Both the position numbers and the translations under genes were made by a program. Below are positions 1-16,049 of a stretch of 64,000 nucleotides of DNA, in pieces. The DNA lies in NCBI GenBank assembly GCA_024742485.1, contig JANSYK010000004.1, positions 186,001-250,000 on the forward strand. Reading direction: 5' to 3'. This stretch comes from Alphaproteobacteria bacterium (GTDB lineage Bacteria > Pseudomonadota > Alphaproteobacteria > Rhizobiales > Rhizobiaceae). Each line of letters starts with the position of its first letter. Positions within the stretch are counted from its first letter, which is position 1. The notes under the pieces were generated by a model. It did not search any database, was not told the origin of the DNA, and saw only the letters and a list, made by a program, of their open reading frames with translations.

Positions 1-3
1 TGA

Positions 4-1170
4 TCAGGCACTGCGGTAGAGCTTGGTCATGACAAATTCCCGGTGCCCAAGCGCTTCGGCTGCAGTATGCCGGCCATTGGCCGTGCGCACGATCATCTCG
101 ATCAGCGAATCGCCCGCCTGGCTGATGGTCATCTCCCGCCGCAAGATGCCGGAAACGTCGACATCCACATGCTCGCTCATCGTGCGAACCGTGCGCGGAT
201 TGCCGGTGATCTTGATCACAGGAACAATCGGATTGCCGATCACATTGCCCTGTCCGGTCGGAAAGGTATGCATCACGTAGCCGGCAGCAGCCATCAGCGT
301 GACGCACTCGGCAGCAGCCGAAGACGTATCCATGAAATAGAGGCCCTTGCCCTTTTTCGGCTCTTCCGCCGGCCCGAGCGCATCGACATAGGTCGATGTG
401 CGGCCGATCTTTTCCAGATTGCCGAGAGCCTTTTCCTCAATGGTTGTCAGGCCACCGAGAATGTTGCCCTTGGTCGGCTGGCTGTCGGACAGGTCCGAGG
501 TCTTGTGCGCATCGATCACATCGTCCTGATAGGCCTGCCAGATGGTCTTGAATTTCGCCGCAGCTTCCGGATTGGCAGCGCGCGCTTCACACAGATGCTC
601 GGCGCCTGTTATCTCCGATGTCTCGCCAAAGCAGCCATAGATTCCTTCCGGCAGCAGCTTGTCATACATATTGCCAACGGTCGGACAGGACGACAATCCG
701 GTGGTCGTGTCGCTTTCGCCGCATTTCGTCGAAATCCACAGATCGGAGACATCGCACTCCTCGCGCATCAGCTCCGTGGCCCAGTGAACATATTCCTTTG
801 CAACGCGCGATGCGGCAGCGACGGTTGCGATGTCGCCATTTTGCTCGATCGACAGTCCGGTGACGGGCTTGCCGGTCTCCGCGATGCCGTCAACGACAAC
901 TTTCGTCCATTCGGGTTCGATGCCGATCACGACAACCGCGGCGACATTGGGATTGGATCCCGTGCCGATCATCGTGCGGAAATGAAGGTCGAGATCTTCA
1001 CCGAACTGCAGCCGACCATAGGCATGCGGCAGGGCCATGGTTCCCTTGATGTTGTTGGCAACCGACTCGCAAGCCGCATTGGAAATATCGTCAAGCGGCA
1101 GGATCACCACGTGGTTTCGTACGCCAACCCGGCCATTCTCGCGGCGATAGGCCATTATTTTTTGTGACAT
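4..1170 (-). CDS. suyB: UxaA-family lyase large subunit, probable (2R)-sulfolactate sulfo-lyase subunit beta (SuyB)
   Basis: This 388-residue protein belongs to the UxaA/altronate dehydratase C-terminal family. Its length and its pairing with a separate SAF-domain small subunit fit SuyB, which with SuyA cleaves 3-sulfolactate to pyruvate and sulfite in the cytoplasm. Cysteine-containing segments (TKCGESD near residue 150, SSCPTVGN near 160, YGCFGE near 180) fit the metal-binding core expected of the family. The ATG is preceded by AGGAG that overlaps the suyA stop codon, so the two genes are translationally linked with a 9-nt gap. Altronate or galactarate dehydratase is the alternative, but those enzymes are usually fused or longer. 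The neighbouring YihV-like kinase and shared operator favour a sulfonate substrate. The specific substrate is inference. Confidence 0.75.
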
Positions 1171-1179
1171 TGTTTTCTC

Positions 1180-1467
1180 CTACCAGCGCTTGGTCTTGAC
1201 GTTGTGCACATGGACATGCTCGCCCTTCTTGATGGGCGCGACCACTTTGCCGATATCCTCACCATATTTGAAAATCGTGTCCCCGACATCCAGATCGGCC
1301 AAGGCCACCTTGTGGCCGATCGGCACATCATGCCGGCTCTCAAGCTCGAAATCCGAATCGTCATGGGTGACGACGCAGGTCATGTTCGTGCCTGCCTTCA
1401 ATTCTTCCACAACGACAACGCCAACATTGTCCTTGTGGTCATGGACCAGCAAATGCGGGATACTCAA
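1180..1467 (-). CDS. suyA: SAF-domain small subunit, probable sulfolactate sulfo-lyase subunit alpha (SuyA)
   Basis: This 95-residue SAF/UxaA N-terminal domain protein is the expected partner of the downstream large subunit. The C-terminus has the family pattern GKVVAPIKKGEHVHVHN, where the histidines probably contribute to the active site. I chose the TTG start at 1467 because GGAGG lies 5 nt upstream and the protein then begins SIPHLLVHD. An upstream ATG-initiated version would add 15 residues with no ribosome binding site. It is first in a two-gene unit and sits about 50 bp downstream of the palindromic operator at 1519-1534. Altronate dehydratase small domains look similar, so the substrate rests on genomic context. 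Confidence 0.72.
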   Translation of the reverse strand: MSIPHLLVHDHKDNVGVVVVEELKAGTNMTCVVTHDDSDFELESRHDVPIGHKVALADLDVGDTIFKYGEDIGKVVAPIKKGEHVHVHNVKTKRW

Positions 1468-1518
1468 GGAAACCTCCAACGGATATTTTGGGATAGGCGG
1501 CACGCATGCCAAGTCTTA

Positions 1519-1534
1519 TATCTTATATAAGATA
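1519..1534. promoter_or_regulatory. Palindromic operator, suyA / gntR intergenic region
   Basis: TATCTTATATAAGATA is a perfect 16-bp palindrome, preceded by a partial copy (GTCTTATA at 1513-1520). It lies between the divergent suyA and GntR-regulator genes. The 12-bp core TCTTATATAAGA recurs upstream of the kinase gene (7730-7741) and dctP (12890-12901), and with one mismatch upstream of dctQ (14943-14954). The obvious candidate to bind it is the adjacent GntR-type regulator; that is inference. Confidence 0.8.
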
Positions 1535-1688
1535 CATAAAGCTGGATTTGTCAACCGGAACACGATAATACCAGAGGCTGGGGGATTGACCCACCCGAAA
1601 CCCGTGCACCCGCGAATGATTGCGGGCTTCAATGCGGTTGATGCGGAACGCGGGACAGGGCATTGCAAGACGCTGGAGGGCATTGAGT

Positions 1689-2438: not shown

Positions 2439-2477
2439 CCCGTTTCACGTTCGTCACGAATTTGATGGTTCGAGGAA

Positions 2478-3566
2478 CTACAAGAGCCTGACCGGTTCGC
2501 CGCTGCGCGCGGATTGTTCGGCTGCGGCGCCGATTTCCACCGCCCTTGTGCCATCCTCGATGCTGATTTCCGGCTGGCCGCCCTCGCGTATGAGGTGGAG
2601 GAATTTCTGATGCTGGAAATAGGTGGATCCATGGTGGTCGCCGGCCGACAGGATGGCCGGATCGACATGGATATCCTCGCGTCGCTCGATCTTGGTCGCT
2701 CGCGATGAAATGGCGATTTGGGAGTGCCGTTCCTGTCCATCGGGCGCGAAACGGGCAGGACCGGGAACAAACGCCTCGATACGGGCCTGATCGCCGGTGA
2801 CACCAATGGTCTCCTGCCAATAGGATCCCTCTGCAAACATGCAAAGATCGAGCATGCCCCGCATCCCGTTCTCGAAATCGACAATCACGAAGGCATTGTC
2901 CAGAATATCCGGCTTGACGCCATCATGTTCTTCATCGCGAAAATTCACATCCATGGCGCCGGACGCGTAGACTCGGGTCGCCTCCGAGCCCGAGATCAGC
3001 CGCATCAGATCGAAAAAATGACAGCATTTTTCCACCATGGTGCCACCCGTGAACCGCTGGAATCGGTTCCAGTGATCGATCTTGCTGAGAAACGGAAACC
3101 GGTGTTCCCGGATCGCAATCATGTGGACCCGCCCGGCCGTTCCGGCCCGGACCTCGTCGAGCAGCCGGGCGACCGGCGGCATGTAGCGGTATTCCATCGC
3201 CACCCAGACAGGGGCCTGTCGCGGCTGGGCACGGGCGAGAATGTCGCGGCACTGTGAATCATCAATCCCCAACGGCTTTTCAACCAGCAGCGGAATATCC
3301 GTTGGCAATATATCGGTCAAAATGGGGTGATGCAGGTAATTCGGGGCGGCCAGCACGATGGCATCACAGCCGCCGGCGTCGAGCATGGCCTTGTGGTCAG
3401 CATAGGCGGCGCATTGGCCACCGGCCGTATGGGCCGCCATGGCCCGCATTTCCTCATTCGGATCGGCGACCGCAACCACCTGCGTGCCCTCCAGCAGGGC
3501 AATGTTGCGGATATGCTCCTGTCCCATCATGCCGGAACCAATGATGCCGTAACGAATATTTCTCAT
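2478..3566 (-). CDS. Gfo/Idh/MocA-family NAD(P)-dependent oxidoreductase; candidate sulfoquinovosidase or sugar dehydrogenase
   Basis: The 362-residue protein has an N-terminal Rossmann fold (YGIIGSGMMGQEH, residues about 5-17; ADPN at the end of beta-2) and the family's EKP motif (LVEKPLG, near residue 95) followed by the alpha/beta substrate domain. I set the start at the ATG before RNIRYGIIG because the Rossmann strand begins immediately after it. It follows the isomerase-like gene by 13 nt and is probably cotranscribed. In a sulfosugar locus with no GH31 enzyme, it could be an NAD-dependent sulfoquinovosidase of the GH188 type, which also uses this fold. A dehydrogenase acting on SQ or another sugar is equally possible from sequence alone. 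Confidence 0.8.
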   Translation of the reverse strand: MRNIRYGIIGSGMMGQEHIRNIALLEGTQVVAVADPNEEMRAMAAHTAGGQCAAYADHKAMLDAGGCDAIVLAAPNYLHHPILTDILPTDIPLLVEKPLGIDDSQCRDILARAQPRQAPVWVAMEYRYMPPVARLLDEVRAGTAGRVHMIAIREHRFPFLSKIDHWNRFQRFTGGTMVEKCCHFFDLMRLISGSEATRVYASGAMDVNFRDEEHDGVKPDILDNAFVIVDFENGMRGMLDLCMFAEGSYWQETIGVTGDQARIEAFVPGPARFAPDGQERHSQIAISSRATKIERREDIHVDPAILSAGDHHGSTYFQHQKFLHLIREGGQPEISIEDGTRAVEIGAAAEQSARSGEPVRLL

Positions 3567-3579
3567 GGATGCTGGGCTT

Positions 3580-4977
3580 TCAAAGTCGGACAACGGGGAG
3601 ATCCAGTGCGTCGGCCAGCGACAACAGCGTGTCGATATGGTCGCCATAGGCAAGCGCCATATGGTGCTCAAGACCGCAATCGATAAGATCGGGCAGGACA
3701 TCGGTGACGGGCCGGTCGAACCGCAACACACCGGAAGTGCCGGTAAAGGCCATGGGCCGCTTCAGCATCTCGGCGCCGGCGATCACCAGCTTGTGGGCAC
3801 CCTGCGCCTGGCTGAGGCGGAACAGGCTGACGCGCCCCGGCTTCAGCGGAAACTGATAGAGAAGCGGCATTTTCCGGTTGGTATGCAAGGTTGCCTCCGG
3901 GGTGGAATCTGGATCGGCCATGGATATGGGCGCCTGTCCGCAATGCCATACGACACCGGTGTCATCCCCGGCATCCATATCCACCAGATCCACCAGAAAC
4001 ACCGGTGCATCGGCCACCGCCTGCAGCAGCAATTGGGTGGCCGCACCATAGACATCGGCTTCGCAAGCGCAGGGGACCCTTGCCTCACCCATCATCGAAA
4101 CCGGTCCGCAAACGGCACCACCATAGGCTGTGAAGGTCTCCGGCCAGCAACGGATGGCAAATGCGTCGAACCCGCCATTGCTGCGGATGGTTTCGATCGC
4201 AGCTTTCAACCGGAGCGACTTTTCCAGCTCACCCTGATCCACCGTATCAAGGCCGCTCAATTCCTGTGATGCCTGCGACCGAATGGCCGCCGACGTTTCG
4301 ACCGAAACATCCTCAGCCGCCTCGAATAGCTCTTCCAGCGGCAATTCATCGACGTTGATGGAGGTCAGGTTCTTGAGCGCGTCCTTGTCATAGCGGCAGG
4401 TGTCAAACCCCTCCGGATGGGCGCCAAGCCGGCCAATCGTCTGTCCGGCAACGGCATCCAGAACGGCTTGTCCCGCCGCACTGTCACCGCCGGCACGCTC
4501 CCCTGACAGGGGCTGGATCAATCGCTCACCCTCAAGCAACTCGTCAAGCCGTATCGCAATGTCATTGCCGTCGGGTGCGGCGTACAGCCATGAAAATCGG
4601 CGGTCCAGCAAGCCAAGAGCATGGGACGCAAGATTGAGACCGCAAAAGGCGTTGAGACGCAAGCGGTCGCCGAGCCGGGGCTCGGGCACAGCCCAAAGGG
4701 CAAGCGGCGTGTCAAATTGTCCGGCGATACGGGCGCACGCCGTAGCATCGGTAAACGTGACCTGCAGGATCAGGACGAGATCGGGCGCCTGGCCCTTCAG
4801 AGCCGCGACCGCTGCATCCGTCGCATCGCCATCCATCAACAGATGATCCGGACCGAGAATGCGCCGACCGGTCGCGGTGAGAGCACTGAGCATGAGTGCC
4901 AATTGCTGTTCCGCAAAAGCCACGTCGAATGTTGGTCGCGCCAGTGGCAGCACACCGATTGATTTGATCTCGTTCAT
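3580..4977 (-). CDS. L-fucose/L-arabinose isomerase-like protein; candidate sulfoquinovose-sulfofructose isomerase
   Basis: This 465-residue protein resembles the fucose/arabinose isomerase-like superfamily: an N-terminal Rossmann-like half (LPLARPTFDVAFAEQQL, then DLVLILQVTFTDA) and a C-terminal half with GGFDAFAIRCWPE and the CACEADVYGAATQLLL stretch, whose acidic residues and cysteines fit the metal site and subunit interface of that fold. The ATG before NEIKSIGVL was chosen because conserved sequence begins there. It is followed after 13 nt by the Gfo/Idh/MocA gene. Position between sulfosugar genes suggests an aldose-ketose isomerase that makes 6-deoxy-6-sulfofructose. No copy of the TCTTATATAAGA operator is present in front of it, so regulation may differ. 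Substrate is inference. Confidence 0.62.
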   Translation of the reverse strand: MNEIKSIGVLPLARPTFDVAFAEQQLALMLSALTATGRRILGPDHLLMDGDATDAAVAALKGQAPDLVLILQVTFTDATACARIAGQFDTPLALWAVPEPRLGDRLRLNAFCGLNLASHALGLLDRRFSWLYAAPDGNDIAIRLDELLEGERLIQPLSGERAGGDSAAGQAVLDAVAGQTIGRLGAHPEGFDTCRYDKDALKNLTSINVDELPLEELFEAAEDVSVETSAAIRSQASQELSGLDTVDQGELEKSLRLKAAIETIRSNGGFDAFAIRCWPETFTAYGGAVCGPVSMMGEARVPCACEADVYGAATQLLLQAVADAPVFLVDLVDMDAGDDTGVVWHCGQAPISMADPDSTPEATLHTNRKMPLLYQFPLKPGRVSLFRLSQAQGAHKLVIAGAEMLKRPMAFTGTSGVLRFDRPVTDVLPDLIDCGLEHHMALAYGDHIDTLLSLADALDLPVVRL

Positions 4978-5123
4978 AACAGGGCACCGCCTTCGGCCGA
5001 CCGCAAGAGACCCATTCCGATCCGGCTTGAAACCAAACGATTTATGCTTGTCAAATAAACGCTCCCGGATGATTGTCCCCTTTGAGCAGAACATGCTCTA
5101 ATCCGCTGCGAAGGAGCCATTGT

Positions 5124-5690
5124 ATGAAGCCAAGATCCTATGTTGCCGCCAGTATTGTGGTCTTGCTTGCGATAACTGCCACAGCCGCCCATGCAACGGA
5201 AGCTGCCTGGGCGCGGCTCGCCACCGGCGGCTATACGATCCTGATGACCCACGCTCTGGCGCCCGGTGTAGGTGATCCGCCGTTTTTCGACCTTGAAGAC
5301 TGCACGACCCAGCGCAATCTTTCCGATCGCGGACGGCAATTGGCGCGCCGACAGGGCGTCCGGTTTGCCGCCCGTGCCGTTTCCATATCGAAAGTCTATG
5401 TCAGCCGCTGGTGCCGAACGTTGGAAACCGCCGAAAATGCCTTCCGCGATATCGAAGCCGAGCCGCTTGAAGCGCTGGACTATTCCGAGGATGGCGGAGC
5501 AGATCAGGCCGCGGAAGTGATAGATATCATCCGCTCGTTTCGCGGTCCCGGCAATCAGGTGATGATCACCCATCCCGAAAACATCGAAACGCTGACAGGC
5601 AGCACTCCCCGCGCCGGCGAAGCGATCATTGTTGCCCCCGCGCGAGACGGCGACGGCATCGACGTCGTGGCAAGGCTGCTGCTCAATTAG
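5124..5690 (+). CDS. Exported histidine-phosphatase-superfamily protein with altered RHG motif
   Basis: This 188-residue protein has an N-terminal signal peptide (hydrophobic residues 7-23, AHA cleavage region) followed by a histidine phosphatase fold. The usual RHG/RHA motif at the first catalytic position reads MTHALAPG (His43 kept, Arg replaced by Thr42). Further family landmarks are QRNLSDRGRQLARRQG, VSRWCRTLETA and ITHPENIETLTG. The first His is retained but its phosphate-contacting arginine neighbour is not, so activity may be reduced or altered. AAGGAG lies 7 nt before the ATG. The gene is on the opposite strand to the sulfosugar genes on both sides and splits the aldolase from the isomerase gene. 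Its role in the pathway, if any, is unknown. Confidence 0.8.
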   Translation: MKPRSYVAASIVVLLAITATAAHATEAAWARLATGGYTILMTHALAPGVGDPPFFDLEDCTTQRNLSDRGRQLARRQGVRFAARAVSISKVYVSRWCRTLETAENAFRDIEAEPLEALDYSEDGGADQAAEVIDIIRSFRGPGNQVMITHPENIETLTGSTPRAGEAIIVAPARDGDGIDVVARLLLN

Positions 5691-5722: not shown

Positions 5723-6769
5723 TCAAGAGTCGAATGCCCCGTAATCATAGCGGAATGTCTGATCGTCAGGCATGAACGCCTCCCCGTTCCCGTCAAACAG
5801 GGCATGTGCGTGCCAGGGCAGCGCCTCCGCATCCGTCAGCAGATTGAGGTTTCTCATATAGTTGACCGACTCATTTTCCAGCCCATTGCGAATTTCCTGC
5901 CAGTCCGGAAAGCTTGAAAACGCCTCCAGCCAGATCGCCCGTCCTGCCAGATATCCCGATGCGCCGGCCCGGTAGGCATGCGTCAGGATATTGCGGAAAT
6001 CCTCCTTACCCGCCCCGGCCGACAGCATCACCCATGGACGTCCGGCAAGACGGCCCATTTCATCAAATACTTGCTGCGCGCCCTGCCAGCCCTCATTGCC
6101 GACGCCAGGGACATCCTGCGCGTTGAGAGGACTTTCGAGTTTGAAGACATCGACTCCATATTCCGGCTTTGCAAAGGCTTCCACGGACGCCAGCACATCG
6201 TCGGTCTTCTTGCCCTGCAGCTCTACATAATCGGTCGTTTGGTGGGCATCGCTGGCCAGTGGATAAACCAGCAATTCAAACAGGAACGGAATGTCGTATC
6301 GCGCACAGGCCTCGCCAATCCGTTTGACCAGGTCCTTTTGGTGCGTATTGACCGCCGCCGATGCGTCCGGCCGGTACCAGGCCAACACCTTGACGGCATC
6401 ACCGCCCATGCGTTTGATTTTGGCAACCGACCAGTCATCGATCGATGCGGAAAGTCGACCACCTTCGGTGTCTTCAAAGAGGGAATCTTCAAGGGTGACG
6501 ATCAGTCCCTTTTGTGGCGACAGGAAACGCAGACCACGCGGAATGGCAAAATGCGGATCCAGCAGCATCGCCGAGGACTCACCCTGCAAGGTTTCGGTCA
6601 GCAAGGACTTGAACCGCGCCACATCGTCATAGGGCGCCTGGTCGGTCCCGTAATGCGCGGCAATGGGATTCTTGATCGGGGGGCGCTGATCGACGGCCGT
6701 CATCTTGAATCGACCCGCGCCATCGGCCATGCGCCGCATGCCCCAGAGTTTGCCGGCTGTCAGGTGCAT
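5723..6769 (-). CDS. LacD/DhnA-type class I aldolase; probable 6-deoxy-6-sulfofructose-1-phosphate aldolase
   Basis: This 348-residue TIM-barrel class I aldolase is close in layout to tagatose-1,6-bisphosphate aldolase LacD. The Schiff-base lysine is Lys210 in VDVFKLESP. Other LacD active-site positions are matched: Asp27 in TAVDQR, Lys127 in DAVKVLAWY and Glu165 in FLFELL. Paired with a YihV-like kinase it most likely cleaves sulfofructose 1-phosphate to DHAP and 3-sulfolactaldehyde, as YihT/SqiA-type enzymes do. The ATG is inside the last codons of the kinase gene (10-nt overlap) and has AGGAG upstream, so the two are translationally coupled. Tagatose-bisphosphate aldolase is the alternative activity. 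Confidence 0.78.
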   Translation of the reverse strand: MHLTAGKLWGMRRMADGAGRFKMTAVDQRPPIKNPIAAHYGTDQAPYDDVARFKSLLTETLQGESSAMLLDPHFAIPRGLRFLSPQKGLIVTLEDSLFEDTEGGRLSASIDDWSVAKIKRMGGDAVKVLAWYRPDASAAVNTHQKDLVKRIGEACARYDIPFLFELLVYPLASDAHQTTDYVELQGKKTDDVLASVEAFAKPEYGVDVFKLESPLNAQDVPGVGNEGWQGAQQVFDEMGRLAGRPWVMLSAGAGKEDFRNILTHAYRAGASGYLAGRAIWLEAFSSFPDWQEIRNGLENESVNYMRNLNLLTDAEALPWHAHALFDGNGEAFMPDDQTFRYDYGAFDS

Positions 6770-7665
6770 GATGGGTTCTCCTTGAGAAAATCGTTGACGG
6801 TCTGGCCGGACGGTATGCCGGTCCGGCCGCCGAATTGCGTGCATTTGATGGCGGAAACCGCATTGGCGTAGCGAATGGCCTCCGGTTCCTGCATTCCCTT
6901 CGCCAGCATCAGGGCGAATGCGCCGTGCCAGACATCTCCTGCGCCCAGCGTATCGACGGTCTCCACGGTGAAGGTCGGCACATGCCGGACCTTCTCACCA
7001 TCCCACCAATATGCGCCATCCGCGCCATTGGTGACGCAGACCCAGGCGTCGGTTTCATCAGCGGCCTGGCGCAGGCCCGCCTCGAAGTCTTCATGTCCGC
7101 AATAGTCGAGCAAACCCTGCGCCGAGAAGGCAATGTGGCTGGCTGACTTCAGTGCTTCCGGAGCTTCGCGAACGGGCGCTTCACCATCGATGATGCCGGG
7201 CACACCACGCTGGCGCGCGCCCTCCATCAATGCGTGCGCGCCCTCGGGCCAACGCGTATCGGCCAGCGCTGCATCGAATTCGTCCGGCATGTCCCGGACC
7301 AACCATTCGGCCCCGAAATCCATCGCCTCATCGCGAAAGGCGACAATGTTTCTTTCACCATGCGCATCGATGACCACCGACGAGTAGGACGTTCTCTTGC
7401 CCCGATGCCGCTTGACCAGCGAGCAATCGACCCGCTCTTCCTCGAGGCCTGACACAACCATATCCCCGATCATGTCATCACCTGTTCGGGCCGCCAGCAC
7501 CGCCTCCCCCCCGAGACGCGATATCGTCACCGCAGCATTGGCCGCGCAGCCGCCACCAACGATCATGGCCTCCCGTGCCCGGTATTTCTGACCTGGCTCG
7601 GGAACCTCATCCAACCGGAATACGAAGTCGATGACGGCAACGCCGGCAGCGATTACACGTGTCAT
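6760..7665 (-). CDS. PfkB-family kinase, probable sulfofructose kinase (YihV-like)
   Basis: This 301-residue ribokinase-fold kinase aligns by eye, without gaps through residue 140, to my recollection of E. coli YihV, which phosphorylates 6-deoxy-6-sulfofructose. Shared blocks are VGGGCAANAAVTISRLG (about 36-52), ALADTRWPEGA (133-143), HIAFSAQGLL, the catalytic loop DTLGAGDVWHGAFA with the general-base Asp, and AIKCTQFGGRTGIP near the C-terminus. Lys27 and Arg138, the positions I recall as contacting the sulfonate in YihV, are kept, while YihV Asn109 is Ala here. It is first in a unit with the aldolase (10-nt overlap), and an operator palindrome lies about 65 bp upstream. GGGAGG precedes the ATG. 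Another ketohexose kinase is possible but less likely. Confidence 0.8.
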   Translation of the reverse strand: MTRVIAAGVAVIDFVFRLDEVPEPGQKYRAREAMIVGGGCAANAAVTISRLGGEAVLAARTGDDMIGDMVVSGLEEERVDCSLVKRHRGKRTSYSSVVIDAHGERNIVAFRDEAMDFGAEWLVRDMPDEFDAALADTRWPEGAHALMEGARQRGVPGIIDGEAPVREAPEALKSASHIAFSAQGLLDYCGHEDFEAGLRQAADETDAWVCVTNGADGAYWWDGEKVRHVPTFTVETVDTLGAGDVWHGAFALMLAKGMQEPEAIRYANAVSAIKCTQFGGRTGIPSGQTVNDFLKENPSCT

Positions 7666-7729: not shown

Positions 7730-7741
7730 TCTTATATAAGA
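7730..7741. promoter_or_regulatory. Palindromic operator upstream of the kinase-aldolase unit
   Basis: TCTTATATAAGA, a perfect 12-bp palindrome flanked by CAAG on both sides in the direct reading, lies 65 bp upstream of the kinase ATG. It is identical to the core of the sites at 1521-1532 and 12890-12901. Its place relative to the start codon fits an operator overlapping or just downstream of a promoter. Confidence 0.78.
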
Positions 7742-8763: not shown

Positions 8764-9636
8764 CTAATTGACGACGATGGTGTATCGAACGACCCGGTTG
8801 TTGTCGGAATCGGAAATGTAATAATTGCTGCCGTCGATCGCGACACCCTCGGGATCATCGAACAGATTGGGACCTTTGCCGGGCAGACCGGTACCGAGCA
8901 CGCCGATCAGGCTGCCGCCGTCGGGCCCGTCCGGGTCGATCATCAGGACGCGGTGCGCATCCTGGTCGGCAACCACCAACCGTCCGAACGCATCGGTGTC
9001 GAGATAGCGCGGCCCGATGAATCCGAATTTCTCATGGTCGATCACCTTCAGTACGGTCAGGTCTGGTGCATATTTGACCAATCGCCGGCTGAAATTGTCT
9101 GCAACCCAGATATTGCCATCCCGGTCTTCATCCACATCATGGGCACCGAAAAGACCTTCCGCGATCGCCACCGGCTGACCATTCTCATAGGCGACCAGTG
9201 ATCCAACGCCACCGGCCATGGCATAAATCCGGCCATTGCTGTGGACCAGCGCTCCCTCGCTTTGCGGCGCAGCCAGAATGGCTGTTGGCACCGGGTCTGC
9301 GCCCTGGAGCCCGTCAAACACGAAAACGGCTCCCAATCCGGTTACGGCAACCGCCGCCCGCCCATCCACGCCAAAAGAAATGTCGTGTACGCCGGGCAAT
9401 TTGCCCGCCGCCATCACTTCGACCACGTCGAGGGTTTCCGGATCCAGGACTGCAATACGGGATCCGAACTTGTCGGCAACATAGAGCCGGCCATCGGGTC
9501 CAATCGCCAGATCATGTGGATCGTTGAGTACCGGCGGACCGGCAAGATCGAAAGCCGCGAACGGCCGAACCACGTCCTGCGCGTGAGCAGCCAACGGGCT
9601 TGCCAAGACGATCAGCAATTGAAACAGACATCGCAT
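8764..9636 (-). CDS. Exported NHL/SMP-30-like beta-propeller protein
   Basis: The 290-residue product has a short signal peptide (LLIVLASPLAAHAQ) and repeated NHL-type blades: DPHDLAIGPDGRLYVADKFGSR, GVHDISFGVDGR, GAHDVDEDRDGNIWVADNFSRR, and DPEGVAIDGSNYYISDSDNNR. Such six-bladed propellers act as scaffolds or as lactonase/lyase-like enzymes. I set the start at the ATG before RCLFQLL because AGGAG lies 9 nt upstream and the signal peptide begins there. It follows the di-haem peroxidase gene by 95 nt and precedes the MBL gene by 113 nt. Function unknown; a periplasmic sugar-lactone or partner-binding role is possible. Confidence 0.7.
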   Translation of the reverse strand: MRCLFQLLIVLASPLAAHAQDVVRPFAAFDLAGPPVLNDPHDLAIGPDGRLYVADKFGSRIAVLDPETLDVVEVMAAGKLPGVHDISFGVDGRAAVAVTGLGAVFVFDGLQGADPVPTAILAAPQSEGALVHSNGRIYAMAGGVGSLVAYENGQPVAIAEGLFGAHDVDEDRDGNIWVADNFSRRLVKYAPDLTVLKVIDHEKFGFIGPRYLDTDAFGRLVVADQDAHRVLMIDPDGPDGGSLIGVLGTGLPGKGPNLFDDPEGVAIDGSNYYISDSDNNRVVRYTIVVN

Positions 9637-9731
9637 CAAACAACACTCCTGACGTCCGACCGTAACATTGCCTTGCCGCAAGACCAATCTTCCGCGGCAG
9701 TCACGATTGCGCGAGGCGGATCGGCGACAAT

Positions 9732-11129
9732 TCAATCCACCGGAAGGCCGCTGGGCACGGATGCGGGCCGGCCAAGCCGGCCCTTGACGCTGCGCCCTCC
9801 GGTCAGCGAATGGATGAAGGCGATCAGCGCCTGAACCTCCGCATCTTCAAGCCTGACAGGTTCGATATCGATCTTGCCGCGCACTCTCTGCCTCTCCCGC
9901 CGATCGGCAAGCGCGATGAAATCAATGTCAGCCAGGGTCTCGCTCACGGGCAATTTGACGTCATCGGGCCGCCAGGCGTCAAAGGCCGCCTGCGGGTCGA
10001 GATGGTGTCGAATAATTCCTTCAAGGTCGGCATAGGCGCCGTTGTGGCCGTAGGGACCGGTCAGCGCCGCATTGCGTAGCGAAGGCGTTCTGAACCGATA
10101 GGCATCCTCGATCCGGTCCGTTTCGCCCATCCGCCCGACATCCCGGGCATGAAGGTCAAATGTCCGGGTTCGCCCGGGGCCGAATTGCGGCAGTGCCAGC
10201 GCGTGAAATTCCTGGTCGGTAAACAAGGAACCGCTGTGACAGGTCGCACATTCGCCTTTGCCGTAAAATACGCCCATGCCGGCCTTTGCCTGCGGCGTGA
10301 GCGCATTGTGATCGCCACCGAGATAAGTGTCGAAGGGGCTGTCGAAGGAGCGCCATTCCGAAATGACGAAATCGCCGATGGCGTTGGCGATGTGGATGAA
10401 TTCGATATCCGCTGATCCGGTCACACCGTCATAAGCATCGGCAAACAAGGGCGCATAGGCATCGATTGCCCGGATGCGTTCCGTTAGCAGTGCCCAGACC
10501 TTGTCAATCCGGTCATTCCGGGCGCCGGCAATTTCATTTTCCTCCGGCCGTCCCGCCATCTCGGTTTCAGAGGTCACCGGAAACGCCGCCTGGGCGGCCA
10601 CAATATGATTGAGGCCTTGCGGCAGATATTCCTCGGCAGGAGAATTGAAACCATTGCCGTAGAGGTCGCTGATGCTCAGCCGACCGTCATGAAACAGCAA
10701 CCGGATGTCCCTGTGGCCCAAATTGAAAAGCGCCGGTGAATTGCGCGGCACGCGCCGGTCGATGCTGGCCATACCGGCGCCAGTCGTGCGCTCTCGGCCG
10801 ATGCCCTGTCCCCCCTCGCCGACGCCCAGGGGCAGCGCATCGGCACTGGCCAGGTCGTGATGGTGGCAGGTTCCGCAGGAAATGTTGCGGTTGCCCGAAA
10901 GGATCGGATCATAAAACAGCAGACGTCCGAGCGCCGCTCTTTTGTCATCGAACGGGAGAAAATCGCCATCGCTCAGCGCCGGCGGCAGCGGTGTGACGGT
11001 ATCGGAGCTCCCGGCTGTGACGGGAGACAAAACGGCACCGACTGCAAGCAGCATGACGAACGCTAATCCATGGCTCCTACCAAGACCACACTTGAAAGTC
11101 CGTTCGGCGCGGTTAAGGTTCAGCAACAT
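9732..11129 (-). CDS. Di-haem cytochrome c peroxidase / MauG-family protein
   Basis: The 465-residue exported protein carries two c-type haem motifs, CGTCH early (near residue 110) and CATCH in the second half, together with the peroxidase-family features FHDGRLS, RVPRNSPALFNLG, RFRTPSLRNAALTGPYGHNGAY and a final GGRS tail. A hydrophobic stretch around residues 20-40 serves as the signal peptide. Members reduce hydrogen peroxide or, as in MauG, perform oxidations in the periplasm using two haems. The start used (MLLNLNRAERTF) lacks a strong ribosome binding site, and a later ATG at the signal core is possible. Neighbours are exported proteins on the same strand; the Sel1 gene is divergent 35 bp upstream. 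Confidence 0.85.
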   Translation of the reverse strand: MLLNLNRAERTFKCGLGRSHGLAFVMLLAVGAVLSPVTAGSSDTVTPLPPALSDGDFLPFDDKRAALGRLLFYDPILSGNRNISCGTCHHHDLASADALPLGVGEGGQGIGRERTTGAGMASIDRRVPRNSPALFNLGHRDIRLLFHDGRLSISDLYGNGFNSPAEEYLPQGLNHIVAAQAAFPVTSETEMAGRPEENEIAGARNDRIDKVWALLTERIRAIDAYAPLFADAYDGVTGSADIEFIHIANAIGDFVISEWRSFDSPFDTYLGGDHNALTPQAKAGMGVFYGKGECATCHSGSLFTDQEFHALALPQFGPGRTRTFDLHARDVGRMGETDRIEDAYRFRTPSLRNAALTGPYGHNGAYADLEGIIRHHLDPQAAFDAWRPDDVKLPVSETLADIDFIALADRRERQRVRGKIDIEPVRLEDAEVQALIAFIHSLTGGRSVKGRLGRPASVPSGLPVD

Positions 11130-11164
11130 TGGGGCGACCCGCTGAGAAAAGAGGATAATGTTCC

Positions 11165-11656
11165 ATGAGCTTCGGCCGCATACGCACGCTGATTGTTGCA
11201 TCCGCCTTGAGCCTGACCGTCACCGCGGCGCTGGCTGAAATCGAGGAAGCGCGCGATCTGATGGAGGCAAACCGGTTTGAGGAGGCCATGGAGGCACTGC
11301 TGCCAGCCGCCCGTTCCGGCAATGCCGATGCCGAGGAATTGATCGGAGTGATGTATGCCATGGGCCTTGGCGTTCCGCGTGACGATGTGCGTGCCTTTGA
11401 GTGGTATCTGCGATCGGCGATGAAGGGACACCCGGGGGCCCAATCCGGAATTGGTTGGTATTACGAGGTCGGACGCGGTGTTCCCGAGCCCGATCTGGTG
11501 CGCGCCTATCTGTGGTATGTGCTTTCGGCCATCGGTGGTGATCCGGATGCCGCGATCAGCCTTGAGGAAGTGGTCAAGAAGATGACTCCCGATCAGATCA
11601 AACACGCGCAGATCCTCATCAATGACTACAAGCCCTGGATGTATCCGTTCCGCTAA
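11165..11656 (+). CDS. Exported Sel1-repeat protein
   Basis: This 163-residue protein has a signal peptide (residues 1-24, TAALAE cleavage) and two to three Sel1/TPR-like repeats, recognisable as GNADAEELIGVMYAMGLGV then GHPGAQSGIGWYYEVGRGV and RAYLWYVLSAIGGDPDAA. Sel1 proteins are protein-interaction adaptors in the cell envelope. An AGAGG sits upstream of the ATG, and the gene is divergent from the peroxidase gene. Its partner is unknown. Confidence 0.8.
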   Translation: MSFGRIRTLIVASALSLTVTAALAEIEEARDLMEANRFEEAMEALLPAARSGNADAEELIGVMYAMGLGVPRDDVRAFEWYLRSAMKGHPGAQSGIGWYYEVGRGVPEPDLVRAYLWYVLSAIGGDPDAAISLEEVVKKMTPDQIKHAQILINDYKPWMYPFR

Positions 11657-11758: not shown

Positions 11759-12853
11759 CTATTTGATGTCCATTGCGGCGCCGCCATCGATCTTGGCTTC
11801 GGCACCGGCAGCCGCATCGGTCAGCGCCGTGAAGGCAACCTCGCCATTGGCGATGTTCGTCTTGAACCATTCATAGACCGGTGCAGCAGCTTCCTTGAAG
11901 GCCGCTTTTTCTTCAGGCGTAGGAACATAGAGATCACCACCCTCGGCCGTGAAGTCCGCATAGGCCTGGATCGACTTGCGCTTTGGCGAAGCGAATGTGG
12001 CCTGCTGCAGGGCGGCGAAACCGTCGACGACAACCCGGCGCATGTCTTCAGGCATCGACATGAACTGATCATTGCCCATCCACCAGAGCGCACCCATATA
12101 GGCATGCCCGTCAAGCGTGACAAATTTCAGTCCGGCATCCGGGAACTTCATGCCCATGATGTCGGTGATGCCGTTTTTCGAACCTTCGACAACGCCGGTC
12201 TGGAAGGACGTGAACAGCTCGGGCCACGGAATTGGGGTCGGTGATGCACCGAGCGCCTTGACCAGTTCCTGCGGCAGGTCTGCCACCACTGTGCGGATTT
12301 TCAGGCCATCCATGTCAGCCGGGTTCTGCACTCTTTTCTTGGTATTGGCAAAGTTCCGCCAGCCACCGGTATTGCCGATGGTCATCAACCGGATCTTGTC
12401 GCCTGAGTCGGCCAGCGCCAGGTCACGCAGGGTCCGCGTGAAGGAGCCTTCGCTCAGCACTTCCTCGGCAATGCGGTCATCGCGCAGCAGATAGGGCAGA
12501 TCCAGAACCTGCACATAGGGGAAGATGCCCGATGCACCGCCTGAGGTTGAAATGTAGATGTCGATGGAACCGTCAGCAATGCCCTGCAGGCATTCGGCAC
12601 CATTCGAGCAAAGCTGCGTACCGATGAAGAGTTCCACTTCGATCGCACCGTTGGACGCTTTTTCCACATAGTCCTTGAAGACGATCAGGCCATCATAGTC
12701 CTCATCGTTTTCGTTGGAATTTGCCGTTGCACGAAGCTTGTAGTCAGCCGCTTCAGCGGCGGGCACCAGATCGCCAAAGACGGGTGACATCGCGGTCACC
12801 GTCAAACCAAGCGCGAATGCGCCAAGCAGTGTTGCGGTTTTCTTCAGTAGCAT
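11759..12853 (-). CDS. TRAP transporter substrate-binding protein (DctP family), sulfosugar locus
   Basis: The 364-residue periplasmic binding protein has a long signal peptide ending near AEAADY and typical DctP features: TQLCSNGAECLQGIADGSIDIYIS, the NTGGWRNFANTKKRVQNPADMDGLKIR segment containing the substrate-contacting Arg, and SFQTGVVEGSKNG. GGGAGG precedes the ATG. Its own copy of the operator palindrome lies 37 bp upstream, and it is followed in the 5' direction by the dctM-dctQ pair. It probably captures the sulfonated sugar or a derived glycoside; the ligand is inferred from the shared operator only. Confidence 0.85.
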   Translation of the reverse strand: MLLKKTATLLGAFALGLTVTAMSPVFGDLVPAAEAADYKLRATANSNENDEDYDGLIVFKDYVEKASNGAIEVELFIGTQLCSNGAECLQGIADGSIDIYISTSGGASGIFPYVQVLDLPYLLRDDRIAEEVLSEGSFTRTLRDLALADSGDKIRLMTIGNTGGWRNFANTKKRVQNPADMDGLKIRTVVADLPQELVKALGASPTPIPWPELFTSFQTGVVEGSKNGITDIMGMKFPDAGLKFVTLDGHAYMGALWWMGNDQFMSMPEDMRRVVVDGFAALQQATFASPKRKSIQAYADFTAEGGDLYVPTPEEKAAFKEAAAPVYEWFKTNIANGEVAFTALTDAAAGAEAKIDGGAAMDIK

Positions 12854-12889
12854 AAATTTCCTCCCACTTTTCGGACCAATTTCCGACAG

Positions 12890-12901
12890 TCTTATATAAG
12901 A
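12890..12901. promoter_or_regulatory. Palindromic operator upstream of dctP
   Basis: TCTTATATAAGA, preceded by CAG and followed by TATAAGAT (a second half-site), lies 37 bp upstream of the dctP ATG. Same core as at 1521-1532 and 7730-7741. Confidence 0.78.
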
Positions 12902-12997
12902 TATAAGATTGACGACTGAAACTCACTTGTCAAGAACGGTTTCACGCCCTGCGCTACTGCCGTCATGGTTGCACAATACAACAGGCCGCAATGCCGC

Positions 12998-14287
12998 CTA
13001 TTTGATGAAGCCGAAGAACTCCGGCACGGCCATCGAGATCGCCGGAATGTAGGTGATCAGAAAGATCACAAGAATCTCCACCGCCAGAAATGGCAGGATC
13101 GACTTGGCAATCGTCTCGACCTTGACGCCCGACACGCTGGACGCCACGAACAGCACCAGCCCCATGGGTGGCGTGGCCAGCCCCACCGTTAGGTTGACGC
13201 TCATGATGATGGCGAAATGCACCGGATGCACGCCCAGCTCCGTGAAGATCGGCGCCAGGATCGGTCCGAGGATGATGATCGCCGGACCGGCATCCAGAAA
13301 CATGCCCACAATGAACAGGAGCAGGTTGATCAGGAACAGCAGGATGAGCGGGTTCTCCGAAAGGCTGAGAATGAAGCCGGCCAGAATTTCCGGAGCATGG
13401 CTCAGACTGACCACGGTTTTGAAGGCCATAGCCGCGCCGACCAGCAGAAGCACGACGGATGTCGTCAGCGCCGCCTTGGTCAGAACTTTCGGCAGGTCGT
13501 TCCAGCCCATCGTCCGCAGGATGAACATGCTGACGATGAAGGCATAGACGGCGGCAACCGCGGATGCTTCCGTCGGTGTGAAGATACCACCCAGAATACC
13601 GCCAAGAATGATGACCGGCGTCAGCATCGGGAAAAAGGCCCGAAGCGATGCCTGTCCGCGCTCGCCCAGCGTCGCTCGCCGGGCAGCCGGTGGAAAGTCG
13701 TTCGAACGCGCCAGATAGGCCGTCATCATCATCAGGCCGACACCCACCAGGACGCCCGGGACAATGCCGGCCAGGAACAGGGCGGCAACGGATTCGCCCA
13801 TCACATAGGCGTAAATGATCATGATGCCCGATGGCGGGATAATCGGCCCGATCACAGACGAAGCAGCGGTGATGGCGGCGGCGAATTTGCGGGTATAGCC
13901 ATTCTTCTCCATGGCCGGGATCAGCATCGAACCGAGTGCCGACGTGTCAGCGACCGCGGAACCCGAGAGACCGGCAAACAACATGGAGGACAGGATATTG
14001 ACCTGCGCCAGACCGCCACGCAAATGGCCGATCAGCGCCTGGCTGAATTCGACGATCCGCATGGTGATGCCACCACGATTCATCAGTTCGCCAGCCAGCA
14101 TGAAGAATGGAATGGCCATCAGTGGAAAGGAATCCATGCCGGTATAGACATTGCGGTAGAGCAGCGCGATGTCACGCTCCTGCCCGTTGAGCCAGAGCAG
14201 AATTCCGGGCGCGGCCAGCAGGCCGAAAAACACCGGCAGACCAATCATCAGGAAAATGAGAAACAGCGGAAGAAAGAGAAAAAGCAT
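12998..14287 (-). CDS. TRAP transporter large permease (DctM family)
   Basis: This 429-residue membrane protein has about twelve hydrophobic segments and DctM landmarks: PLMAIPFFMLAGELMNRGG, SSMLFAGLSGSAVADTSALGSMLIPAME, AASSVIGPIIPPSGIMIIYAYV, GIFTPTEASAVAAVYAF and a C-terminal GLVLFVASSVSG. It is the sodium-coupled translocation subunit. I set the start at the ATG at 14287, which begins the first membrane helix (LFLFLPLFLIFLM). It follows dctQ by 5 nt. A hydrophilic upstream extension in this frame overlaps dctQ and is not coding. Confidence 0.9.
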   Translation of the reverse strand: MLFLFLPLFLIFLMIGLPVFFGLLAAPGILLWLNGQERDIALLYRNVYTGMDSFPLMAIPFFMLAGELMNRGGITMRIVEFSQALIGHLRGGLAQVNILSSMLFAGLSGSAVADTSALGSMLIPAMEKNGYTRKFAAAITAASSVIGPIIPPSGIMIIYAYVMGESVAALFLAGIVPGVLVGVGLMMMTAYLARSNDFPPAARRATLGERGQASLRAFFPMLTPVIILGGILGGIFTPTEASAVAAVYAFIVSMFILRTMGWNDLPKVLTKAALTTSVVLLLVGAAMAFKTVVSLSHAPEILAGFILSLSENPLILLFLINLLLFIVGMFLDAGPAIIILGPILAPIFTELGVHPVHFAIIMSVNLTVGLATPPMGLVLFVASSVSGVKVETIAKSILPFLAVEILVIFLITYIPAISMAVPEFFGFIK

Positions 14288-14292
14288 GGTGT

Positions 14293-14880
14293 CTACTCCG
14301 CCGAAATCACGGTTTGATCTTGATCCACCGGGAGCTCCGCGGACGGATCGATGAGGCCGATGATCGCCTTGAGCGAAAGCTCGATATTGACGAGGATCAT
14401 CATGAAGATGCCGACCGGCAGGGACATGTACATCCAGGCCAGCTTGATCCGCACCAGGCCGAGACCGAAAATCTCCAATGGCAGTTTGAGCGAGCTGGAG
14501 TTGAACAGCCATCCCGAGCTGACATGTTTGAGACCCATCTGGAAACCGACGACCAGCACCAGAAGGCTGACAAACAGCAGACACAGGGTCACCAGCTGAC
14601 CGAGCCAGGCCGGCAGCATGTCCTTGACAAGGTCGATGGAAACGAAGCCGCCCCAACGGTAAGCGCTCGGTGCAATCAGCCCGGTCATCCACAGCATCAG
14701 GAACCGCGCCGCCTCGTCGGGCCAGGGCAGTGCATTGTTGAGCACATAGCGGGCAAACACCTGCAGGACGATGATCAGAACCATCAGACCCATCGCGACC
14801 CAGGCGATGTTCCGACCGATGCGCAACAGGATGGTGTTGATCCAGGCCAGCGGCCTGAGAATGAGCAATATAGCGGCCAT
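14293..14880 (-). CDS. TRAP transporter small permease (DctQ family)
   Basis: This 195-residue protein has four hydrophobic segments and the DctQ signature VFARYVLNNALPWPDEAARFLMLWMTGL near residues 40-70. It forms the membrane partner of the DctM subunit encoded directly downstream. The ATG at 14880 is chosen because GGGGAGG lies immediately upstream (about 3-4 nt spacing); a GTG at 14892 would overlap that ribosome binding site. An imperfect copy of the regulon palindrome is 63 bp upstream. Confidence 0.88.
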   Translation of the reverse strand: MAAILLILRPLAWINTILLRIGRNIAWVAMGLMVLIIVLQVFARYVLNNALPWPDEAARFLMLWMTGLIAPSAYRWGGFVSIDLVKDMLPAWLGQLVTLCLLFVSLLVLVVGFQMGLKHVSSGWLFNSSSLKLPLEIFGLGLVRIKLAWMYMSLPVGIFMMILVNIELSLKAIIGLIDPSAELPVDQDQTVISAE

Positions 14881-14942
14881 GTTCCTCCCCACGACACGGC
14901 GCCAGCCACCCAGTTATGTCTCGGCGGGCAGCCGTCACTGAG

Positions 14943-14954
14943 TCTTATATAATA
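14943..14954. promoter_or_regulatory. Imperfect copy of the regulon operator upstream of dctQ
   Basis: TCTTATATAATA matches the palindrome TCTTATATAAGA at 11 of 12 positions and is followed by more AT-rich half-site-like sequence. It lies 63 bp upstream of dctQ, a distance like that seen at the kinase gene. Confidence 0.65.
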
Positions 14955-15038
14955 TATATTAATGGGCCCTATTCTGACACGCCTGTCAAGCACCCGGGCA
15001 TTCGGTTGTGAATATCGACAGCGTTCAACCGGTCCGGA

Positions 15039-16049
15039 TCAACCTTTGGAAAACCTGTAATCGGTTTCCTGCAACAGCGTTTCACCGGGCCGCAAAACAG
15101 CGCTGGGAAATCCGCTGTGGTTGGGAGAATCGGGCCAGATCTGCGCTTCCAGACACAGGCCAGAAAAGGCGCCATAGGGTTGGCCTTCAAGGCCGGGAAC
15201 GGCGGTGTCAACCTTGTGCCCGGCATAAAACTGCAGGCCGGGTTCAGTGGTCCACACATCCATTTTGACGCCGGAAGTCGGGCTGTTGACCTGTGCCACC
15301 GGTCTCTTCTCCACCCGTGCATCGGACAGACAGAAATTGTGATCGTAAACACACTGGCCGCCGTCCACATCGCGTCGAATGGCGCGCGTCTTTCGAAAAT
15401 CGAACGGTGTCCCGGCGACCGGCCTCACTTCGCCGGTCGGAATCAATTCGTCGTCCACCGGCAGATAGTGATCCGCCGCAATGCGGATGTCATGATCCAG
15501 CACGTCCGAACGGCCATCAAGATTGAAATAGGAATGATGGGCCATGTTGCACAGCGTCGGCTGATCGGTTTCAGCCTCGTGAATCAGTGAAAGGACCCCA
15601 TCGGCACCAAGCCGATAGGTACAGGCGATCCGGCAATTGCCGGGATAGCCCATCTGGCCGTCGGGGTCGTCGATTTCCAGCCTGACATGATTGTCACCAT
15701 GATCCGCGATGCGCCAAATTCGCTTGCCGATCCCCTCACGCCCGCCGTGGAGATGATGGAGACCGCCCTCGTTTCGGTCGAGCTGATGGTCGACACCATC
15801 GAGCGTGAAGCGTCCATGGGCGATACGATTGGCGTATCGACCCGGTGTCGCACCAAAATAGGGTGAGTGCCGCAGGTAGTCGTCAAATGCCGAGAACCCC
15901 AGAACAAGCGGGTTGTCATGTCCGGCCAGCCGCAAATCCTGCAGGGTCGCTCCCCAATTCAGGACCGATGCCGTCAAGCCACCGCCATTGATGGTGATGC
16001 GGTTGACGGTATCGCCGTCCTCCGTATTGCCGAAAATTTCGCCTTCCAT
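15039..16049 (-). CDS. Aldose 1-epimerase (galactose mutarotase family)
   Basis: This 336-residue GalM-type beta-sandwich interconverts alpha and beta anomers of aldoses. Visible landmarks are the GATPGRYANRIAHGRF segment (substrate-binding Arg), the catalytic His in NMAHHSYFNLDG, YDHNFCL near the C-terminal third and the FSGLCLEAQIWPDSPNH block carrying the catalytic Glu. It overlaps the upstream VWA gene by one base (TGATG), suggesting cotranscription with it, yet its position beside the sulfosugar locus would fit a sulfoquinovose mutarotase (as YihR). No operator palindrome precedes it, so a generic sugar mutarotase is equally plausible. Confidence 0.85.
   Translation of the reverse strand: MEGEIFGNTEDGDTVNRITINGGGLTASVLNWGATLQDLRLAGHDNPLVLGFSAFDDYLRHSPYFGATPGRYANRIAHGRFTLDGVDHQLDRNEGGLHHLHGGREGIGKRIWRIADHGDNHVRLEIDDPDGQMGYPGNCRIACTYRLGADGVLSLIHEAETDQPTLCNMAHHSYFNLDGRSDVLDHDIRIAADHYLPVDDELIPTGEVRPVAGTPFDFRKTRAIRRDVDGGQCVYDHNFCLSDARVEKRPVAQVNSPTSGVKMDVWTTEPGLQFYAGHKVDTAVPGLEGQPYGAFSGLCLEAQIWPDSPNHSGFPSAVLRPGETLLQETDYRFSKG

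Follow-up and report, generated by a model that had tools for sequence, protein, structure and literature searches.

Can a single bacterium carry sulfoquinovose (SQ) all the way to sulfate, and would it hold the genes for all of these steps in one regulon? About 10 billion tons of this sulfosugar are turned over each year (PMC10755693, PMC12890257), and in the literature considered here its breakdown is described mainly as a relay, with one bacterium excreting sulfolactate or 2,3-dihydroxypropane-1-sulfonate (DHPS) and another one desulfonating it (PMC9594981, PMC13372026). The question is raised by a locus at the left end of a 64,000-nt stretch from a member of the Rhizobiaceae (GenBank assembly GCA_024742485.1, a draft genome of 6.87 Mb in 161 contigs). 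This stretch, bases 186001-250000 of the 405-kb contig C44, is called the window, and coordinates refer to it unless stated otherwise. An initial annotation had proposed a complete sulfosugar pathway in which a YihV-like kinase and the desulfonating pair SuyAB share a regulon, and every open reading frame (ORF) cited there exists. Because the locus extends past the left window edge, the adjoining 18 kb (stretch L009) were examined as well. Judging from the enzyme family of each member, the gene order, the operator copies and the recurrence in other genomes, we consider it quite probable that this genome combines a hybrid sulfo-Embden-Meyerhof-Parnas (sulfo-EMP) pathway, the desulfonation of sulfolactate and the oxidation of sulfite in one SuyR-type regulon, which would allow complete use of sulfoquinovose by one bacterium.

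In the proposed scheme, a tripartite ATP-independent periplasmic (TRAP) transporter would take up SQ or an SQ glycoside, and a GH188 enzyme would release SQ. A mutarotase and an SftI/SqvD-type isomerase would then yield sulfofructose (SF), the YihV-like kinase would form sulfofructose-1-phosphate, and a LacD-type aldolase would split it into dihydroxyacetone phosphate (DHAP) and (S)-sulfolactaldehyde. An aldehyde dehydrogenase encoded outside the locus would oxidize the latter to (S)-sulfolactate, SlcC and ComC would convert this via sulfopyruvate to (R)-sulfolactate, SuyAB would cleave (R)-sulfolactate into pyruvate and sulfite, and SoeABC would oxidize sulfite to sulfate. A GntR protein acting at TATCTTATATAAGACT-like sites would control the suy, kinase-to-GH188, TRAP and soe transcripts. 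We infer the substrates, direction, effector, operator-binding protein, sulfolactaldehyde dehydrogenase and flux of this scheme.

That the genes form the same regulon, which the initial annotation had merely asserted, is supported by operator copies before suyA, the kinase gene, dctP and the soe genes. The operator TCTTATATAAGA lies in the suyA/gntR intergenic region (1521-1532), 65 nt upstream of the kinase start (7730-7741) and 37 nt upstream of dctP (12890-12901), and a copy with one mismatch to the 12-mer is found 51 nt upstream of dctQ (14943-14954). Throughout the 6.87-Mb genome the exact sequence occurs at four places, namely before suyA, the kinase gene and dctP, and at C102:1700319 ahead of a SoeABC-type gene row. 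The suyA site defined the motif and is therefore not independent evidence; the remaining places are. Within the window the 12-mer gave 8 strand-matches against a shuffle mean of 1.11, a value of 8 being reached in none of 100 shuffles, and Markov models built from 194 kb of the same genome predict 0.005-0.09 exact places. When up to three mismatches to the 16-mer TATMTTATATAAGAYT were allowed, all five places with 0-1 mismatch belonged to the regulon, and the next place outside has two. The gene at 1620-2438 on the plus strand codes for a GntR/HutC-type regulator with GntR and UTRA domains, which we propose to be SuyR, a gene name that is already published (PMC6018796). Identity of its product to other GntR proteins is 52% for the one from the suy locus of Methylobacterium oryzae, 43-44% for those of genome G335 and Bauldia (G388) and 37% for those of two Paracoccus. 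The palindrome between suyA and gntR reads TATCTTATATAAGATA, the corresponding gntR/suyA region of G335 contains AACTCTTATATAAGAGTT, and the two Paracoccus records carry related sites. A looser site, TCWTRTATAWGA, was detected in 11 of 122 loci, each of them part of the regulon itself or a suy locus; G335, Bauldia and the two Paracoccus have it between gntR and suyA, and Methylobacterium oryzae and Cupriavidus have it upstream of suyA. We infer that the GntR protein binds this operator. A predicted operator shared by the suy, kinase, TRAP and soe transcripts supports a single regulon.

Which sugar would enter this regulon is indicated by two genes that had gone unnoticed in the initial annotation. 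The first, at 3580-4977 on the minus strand, is proposed to encode an SQ isomerase of the SqvD/SftI type on the basis of its family model, fold and invariant residues. Its start was shifted from 5094 to an ATG near 4977, because the homologues begin there, and its sole NCBIfam match is NF048012, sulfoquinovose isomerase SftI, at 271 bits. As phmmer gave no match among solved structures, the fold was predicted and compared; the model, with a predicted local distance difference test (pLDDT) score of 92, matched arabinose and fucose isomerases (AraI/FucI fold) in Foldseek. All 15 sequences compared share E305, D329 and H438, and the spacing of 24 residues between E305 and D329 equals that of the FucI metal ligands, a role that we presume for these residues as well. 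A second, distant fucose-isomerase-like gene (27% identity) is present elsewhere in the genome (G000) at C120:1073055-1074398; the 20-kb stretch around it (L064) showed no match to other cluster genes. The second unnoticed gene, at 2478-3572 on the minus strand, probably codes for a SqgA-like, NAD-dependent sulfoquinovosidase of family GH188. Its product matched the solved structures 8qc2/8qc3 with 364-368 bits and 8zn9 with 386 bits, the next protein reaching 79 bits, and the sulfonate-binding Arg, Leu and Lys are conserved (R..L.K in RFPFLSK; residues as given in PMC11465081). A further gene (15039-16049, minus strand, PF01263) encodes an aldose 1-epimerase, the proposed sulfoquinovose mutarotase; homologues with 50-60% identity adjoin gh188 or lie one gene off in L053, L054, L057-L060 and L200. 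The minus strand also carries the three TRAP genes: dctP for the solute-binding protein (11759-12853, PF03480), which has the operator upstream and recurs in the cluster and for which we propose uptake of sulfoquinovose or its glycosides, dctM for the large permease (12998-14248, PF06808), and dctQ for the small permease (14293-14892), the last assigned from its position and from similarity to what occupies the dctQ place in related loci.

The kinase at 6760-7665 (minus strand) was compared with solved structures, with paralogues and in a tree. The sulfofructose kinase 7ag6 was the best structure match (198.9 bits), followed by the "sugar kinase" 2rbc (172.5 bits) and ribokinases with at most 96.5 bits. 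Identity to E. coli YihV (K-12 record) is 37.6% over 295 aa, and that alignment contains the three blocks which the initial annotation had named (VGGG.AA.AAV...RLG, LAD.RW..GA and A.KCT..GGR.GIP). Two YihV proteins scored 187-199 bits and seven PfkB paralogues of the same genome at most 68 bits. These seven, out of 12 other PfkB matches, were combined with 20 YihV-like kinases in a tree, in which the YihV-like kinases split from the paralogues with a support of 93/92 (the branch is not starred, and the paralogues form long rows). The YihV-like character claimed for the kinase was thus upheld both by its top structure match and by its placement with 19 other YihV-like kinases, and a ribokinase or fructokinase identity was rejected on the same grounds. 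Within the tree the window kinase falls in an 11-row clade (100/99) beside YihV proper, not inside it. Of the other ten members, eight come from isomerase loci (L052-L054, L056-L060), and two are plasmid-encoded and do not adjoin an isomerase (L097, L101). No sulfonate genes were found in the neighborhoods of two rhizobial-type kinases on the YihV-like side (L106, L109), and YihV-like membership alone is therefore no proof of substrate. The closest kinase found (58%), that of L097 on a Nitratireductor thuwali plasmid, is not within a sulfo-EMP set; it adjoins an ATP-binding cassette (ABC) transporter and a Gfo/Idh protein, with a luciferase-like monooxygenase (LLM)-class flavin oxidoreductase further off. 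Taken together, we propose a YihV-type sulfofructose kinase of a clade neighboring YihV proper.

The aldolase gene (5723-6769, minus strand) overlaps the kinase gene by exactly the 10 nt reported before (6760-6769) and follows the kinase gene in most related loci. It encodes a LacD/DeoC class I aldolase (PF01791) in which the catalytic Lys of YihT is aligned, and we propose it to be the sulfofructose-1-phosphate aldolase. At this point another sulfosugar has to be considered as substrate, for example a galacto-configured one degraded via sulfotagatose phosphate with the same SuyAB tail. Of the three YihV sulfonate-site residues Lys27, Asn109 and Arg138, the first and the last are conserved in all 20 rows and the Asn in 13 of 20; the Asn is replaced by Ala in the window kinase, which speaks for a different sugar. 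The aldolase points the same way: it lies nearest to tagatose-bisphosphate aldolase models, passing the cut-off of NF009498, and scores 321 bits with 8tnf, named just "DUF2090 domain-containing protein", 140 with LacD and 62 with YihT. A PF00294/PF01791 pair clustered with SuyAB in Paracoccus wurundjeri has been discussed as a possible sulfotagatose route, and this pair showed no significant rise on sulfofucose (PMC12421959). Against a different sugar stands the sulfoquinovose set of GH188 with its sulfonate residues, SftI/SqvD-type isomerase and mutarotase. Moreover, strong GH31 matches replace GH188 in three related loci (L062, L198, L199), which would fit a sulfoquinovoside donor, this GH31 being a presumed sulfoquinovosidase. 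We regard a route for another sulfosugar as unlikely and retain sulfoquinovose as the probable substrate.

Does the pair at 4-1467 release sulfite, as initially suggested? SuyB, the presumed large subunit of (R)-sulfolactate sulfolyase (4-1170, minus strand, GD_AH domains), is encoded next to the small subunit SuyA (1180-1467, minus strand, Pfam SAF), which is 54-73% identical to the suyA products of L113-L117. Thirteen of 313 matching plasmid records are 61-86% identical to SuyB; the other 300 fall below 60%, the next-ranked being at 37.5%. Among the 13 are Cupriavidus pinatubonensis, where the gene belongs to an hpsN-hpsO-suyAB locus, and Paracoccus aestuarii with the annotated order gntR, suyA, suyB, tripartite transporter, hydroxyacid dehydrogenase, Ldh-type dehydrogenase and exporter. 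A UxaA-like pair could also be an altronate/galactarate-type dehydratase in a locus for ordinary sugar acids. In favor of this, SuyB matches a single NCBIfam model, that of galactarate dehydratase, with 131 bits where the cut-off is 731, and most plasmid annotations read "UxaA family hydrolase". The identity gap, with several of the 13 close relatives lying in sulfonate loci, as well as the neighboring slcC and comC and the operator in common with soeABC, make a dehydratase locus extremely improbable. The comparison with altronate/galactarate dehydratases, made by identity and not by a lyase tree, thus rules out that identity and places 4-1467 far nearer to SuyB of sulfonate loci, which agrees with the assignment as SuyAB.

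SuyAB acts on (R)-sulfolactate (PMC9594981), and SlcC and ComC would therefore be needed for the (S) form. Both genes were found directly 3' of suyB with no transporter between, just outside the window, and had not been noticed before: slcC (L009:17023-17955) for a D-2-hydroxyacid dehydrogenase and comC (L009:16019-17026) for an Ldh-type dehydrogenase, whose best NCBIfam match is L-sulfolactate dehydrogenase at 196 bits. By annotation, Paracoccus aestuarii, Methylobacterium oryzae and Rhodococcus koreensis also have such a dehydrogenase pair close to suyAB. No such pair was seen in the suy stretches of P. versutus and C. pinatubonensis, and the strain SC52 stretch has the Ldh-type gene alone.

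The sulfite released would be oxidized by the product of a row that is not part of the locus. The operator at C102:1700319 lies 30 nt before the start of three genes encoding a molybdopterin enzyme of 964 aa, a 4Fe-4S protein and a DmsC-type anchor, which we read as a SoeABC sulfite dehydrogenase. Because the large subunit gave no match to NCBIfam sulfite dehydrogenase models, this assignment rests on context. Its family comprises 13 plasmid records at 50-62% identity, after which identity drops below 30% among the 20 rows listed. The family adjoins xsc in Azospirillum brasilense, and in G022 and G390 no more than about 4 kb separate it from xsc; in Indioceanicola it stands beside an aldehyde dehydrogenase/CoA-ligase set without xsc. 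In Ruegeria pomeroyi, soeABC is described as adjoining pta, near tauR (PMC4334477). The enzyme read as SoeABC was detected in 9 of 13 genomes examined, and PF00174 gave two matches in the own genome.

The step from sulfolactaldehyde to sulfolactate is the weakest link of the pathway. The claim of a complete pathway does not hold within the locus: no PF00171 aldehyde dehydrogenase was matched on C44 168001-206000, a YihU-type reductase not having been searched as a family. We compared the best 27 of 32 aldehyde dehydrogenase matches in the genome. Three of these (L012, L013, L022) keep, by motif reading, the pair of Arg residues proposed for sulfolactaldehyde binding (PMC10599462); one position was unread in five rows, in which the other position is not Arg. 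The Arg pair is not decisive, because human succinate-semialdehyde dehydrogenase (SSADH) has Arg at equivalent positions, where they bind the substrate carboxylate (PMC10599462). The nearest relative of L012 (C154:2570297) is the aldehyde dehydrogenase of a Shinella kinase-aldolase cluster (63%), and L012 also keeps the second Cys of the cluster enzymes. No operator was found near the own-genome candidates, L012, L013 and L022 included. The aldehyde dehydrogenase at 31913-33511 was rejected as a cluster member, as it lies within a set of TRAP, short-chain dehydrogenase/reductase (SDR) and thiamine diphosphate (ThDP)-enzyme genes adjoining an AraC-type gene (by eye), with no operator. It and L012 are nevertheless kept as candidates for sulfolactaldehyde oxidation. 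The set in question, at 25-35 kb of the window, is a second catabolic one with TRAP genes, an SDR, an acetolactate-synthase-like ThDP enzyme and an SSADH-like aldehyde dehydrogenase.

Is the arrangement found in other genomes? Isomerase relatives (E ≤1e-20) were detected in 10 of 385 genomes of an even sample of the class, in seven of them, the own genome included, at ≥34% identity, and in 10 of 101 genomes of the order sample (own included); a scan of GTDB contigs gave six loci. The cross-locus comparison covered 22 isomerase loci (the window, L052-L063 and L195-L203), several of which are short contigs, and 17 of them carry GH188. In G469, three operators TCTTRTATAAGA lie at gntR/suyA, before the kinase gene and ahead of an SDR-TRAP row. 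G430, whose contig ends before suyA, matches it in gntR, in the sugar genes and in the three operators. All three exact TCTTRTATAAGA places of G430 and three of the four of G469 fall in the cluster, the reversed control giving 0-1 per strand. G480 holds the full gene set in one stretch: suyA-suyB-slcC-comC with an exporter-like membrane ORF (by eye), then the operator and gntR, and further on a deoR-type gene, TRAP, sel1, mauG, kinase, aldolase, isomerase, GH188, mutarotase and aldehyde dehydrogenase genes, the product of the last being 74% identical to that of L058. In Bauldia (G388), the genes for the kinase and an aldehyde dehydrogenase are grouped with comC, suyA, gntR and suyB, those for isomerase, aldolase and GH188 lie apart from them, as does slcC, in a second place, and both of its two one-mismatch operator places are at the suy locus. 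SuyB is present at ≥75% in 6 of 13 isomerase genomes and at ≤35% in the rest, and Xsc passes its cut-off in 8 of 13 (own included in both counts). Other tails were found as well. In G022 (L058 12676-16149), suyAB is replaced by slcC and, after it, the genes for the two subunits of sulfopyruvate decarboxylase, which pass the cut-offs of TIGR03845 and TIGR03846. In G161 (L063 11658-14575), the sugar cluster likewise has slcC and comDE-like ORFs instead of suyAB, comDE being assigned by similarity; Xsc is encoded elsewhere in both genomes. Two plasmid loci are also of note. A plasmid of the chloroflexote Ca. Chlorohelix allophototropha (L110) carries, by annotation, the isomerase with a pyrophosphate-dependent phosphofructokinase (PPi-PFK)-type kinase, an aldehyde dehydrogenase, nitrite/sulfite reductase, siroheme genes, phosphoglycerate dehydrogenase and threonine synthase. 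The Zymomonas mobilis plasmid pZZM402 (L098) is possibly a plasmid sulfoquinovose locus, having an SftI/SqvD-type isomerase (39%), a class II aldolase and an aldose epimerase in one stretch with a Gfo/Idh protein, a TonB receptor and an SSADH-type gene.

Several further observations weigh against the proposed pathway and regulon. The isomerase stays below the NF048012 cut-off of 700 bits and ComC below its curated cut-off of 500. In the stretches examined, suyA was present at only 3 of the 22 isomerase loci: in the window, in G480 and in G469, where the contig end cuts it. The fourth exact operator of G469 has no recognized sulfonate gene nearby, and in G480 exact TCTTRTATAAGA occurs once genome-wide, at suyA only. 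Among 10 further isomerase genomes, exact TCTTRTATAAGA was found in two, G335 (at suyA) and G387, so that the operator is not general to the sugar cluster, and it was found in none of G117, G222 and G386, in which SuyB is present. The suy loci L105, L114, L115, L116 and L122 do not contain even the looser TCWTRTATAWGA site. At the one-mismatch level the own genome showed no excess over the reversed pattern (7/8 vs 10/15); weak sites, including further one-mismatch places on C24, C102 (two) and C120, are therefore to be ignored. The SoeA-family neighborhood of Paraburkholderia graminis, one of three viewed, has no recognizable sulfonate gene.

Some of these points would fit two unrelated modules, with SuyAB-SlcC-ComC serving imported sulfolactate or DHPS and the sulfo-EMP part exporting sulfolactate. 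The location of suyB apart from the sugar cluster in G222, G117, G386 and G335 favors such a split, as do the sulfolactaldehyde dehydrogenase missing from the locus and the operator of G480 being on the suyA side only. The common operator before both modules and soeABC argues for one system, and the linkage recurs in G469, G480 and partly in Bauldia. In addition, the tripartite transporter that separates suyB from slcC in Paracoccus aestuarii is absent here. Two separate modules thus seem a poor explanation to us. The earlier suggestion that both halves share a regulon and that one organism could mineralize the sulfosugar gains support from the shared operator and from its recurrence. We also lean towards the view that SuyR and its operator took over the whole route, a downstream intermediate switching on both halves, and that the tail may be an exchangeable module, relatives in the class using SlcC-ComDE with Xsc elsewhere.

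Other genes lie between those of the pathway. A MauG-like di-heme protein (9732-11201, minus strand, PF03150) and a Sel1-repeat protein (11165-11656, plus strand, PF08238) have homologues in 6 and 8 of the 21 other loci, respectively. Here and in other clusters, mauG and the oppositely oriented sel1 are located between dctP and the kinase gene, and sel1 accompanies the TRAP subtype with DctP about 79-84% identical. Between mauG and the kinase gene, the minus strand (7808-8650 and 8764-9735) encodes a protein with a metallo-beta-lactamase fold, related to quinoprotein relay zinc hydrolases, and a protein with NHL repeats; in none of the other 21 loci did tblastn (E 1e-8) match either of them. 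Between the aldolase and isomerase genes, on the opposite strand (5073-5690, plus), lies a weak histidine-phosphatase-type ORF below the Pfam cut-off with a signal-like N-terminus; it is likewise without a match in the other 21 loci.

How does the locus compare with known systems? Sulfo-EMP, sulfo-EMP2 and hybrid pathways of E. coli, Arthrobacter, Bacillus urumqiensis and Vibrio follow the same route from SQ via SF and sulfofructose phosphate (SFP) to DHAP and sulfolactaldehyde (PMC9594981, PMC12890257, PMC13372026, PMC8873060), and hybrid sulfo-EMP clusters in which SqvD replaces YihS are already known (PMC12890257, PMC13372026). As described there, such systems end in DHPS or sulfolactate, whereas here desulfonation and sulfite oxidation would occur within the same regulon. 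Extended sulfo-transaldolase (sulfo-TAL) clusters of Thermotogae and Chloroflexi likewise unite sulfoglycolysis and SuyAB; they differ in the transaldolase route and the phyla (PMC9594981). The in silico Y160 GH188 cluster of Actinobacteria bacterium IMCC26103 shares GH188, fucose isomerase, SF kinase, SFP aldolase, D-3-phosphoglycerate dehydrogenase, SuyA/SuyB and a regulator. It belongs to another phylum, has an ABC instead of a TRAP transporter and its own sulfolactaldehyde (SLA) dehydrogenase, and the sulfonate site holds Tyr in place of the Leu found here; no shared operator or sulfite dehydrogenase is named for it, and complete mineralization is not argued (PMC11465081). The tandem sulfofucolytic-sulfolactate sulfolyase pathway of Paracoccus wurundjeri also places a SlcC/ComC/SuyAB tail on sulfosugar glycolysis in one organism and has the same gap for an SLA dehydrogenase gene. 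Its sugar half is of the Entner-Doudoroff (ED) type and serves sulfofucose, sulfite export via a TauE homologue is proposed, and that strain was grown and measured; neither SoeABC nor operators are mentioned in the passages considered (PMC12421959). The sulfolactate-type gntR-suyAB-transporter-slcC-comC-exporter operon of Paracoccus aestuarii has suyAB, slcC-like and comC-like genes, a divergent GntR gene and a related operator in common with the window; it differs in its tripartite transporter, and the stretch seen holds no sugar genes. Coupling of sulfosugar glycolysis to SuyAB thus has precedents, which counts against novelty of the coupling as such. The extracts of the open-licence literature surveyed contain no account of sulfo-EMP, SuyAB and sulfite dehydrogenase under one operator, and we limit the claim of a new combination to the in-regulon tail of desulfonation and sulfite oxidation.

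A regulon of this kind would unite in one cell the steps that are otherwise relayed between bacteria. The short operator that marks its members may provide a genomic test for complete sulfoquinovose mineralizers, and it may serve as a handle on which gene oxidizes sulfolactaldehyde where none is clustered.

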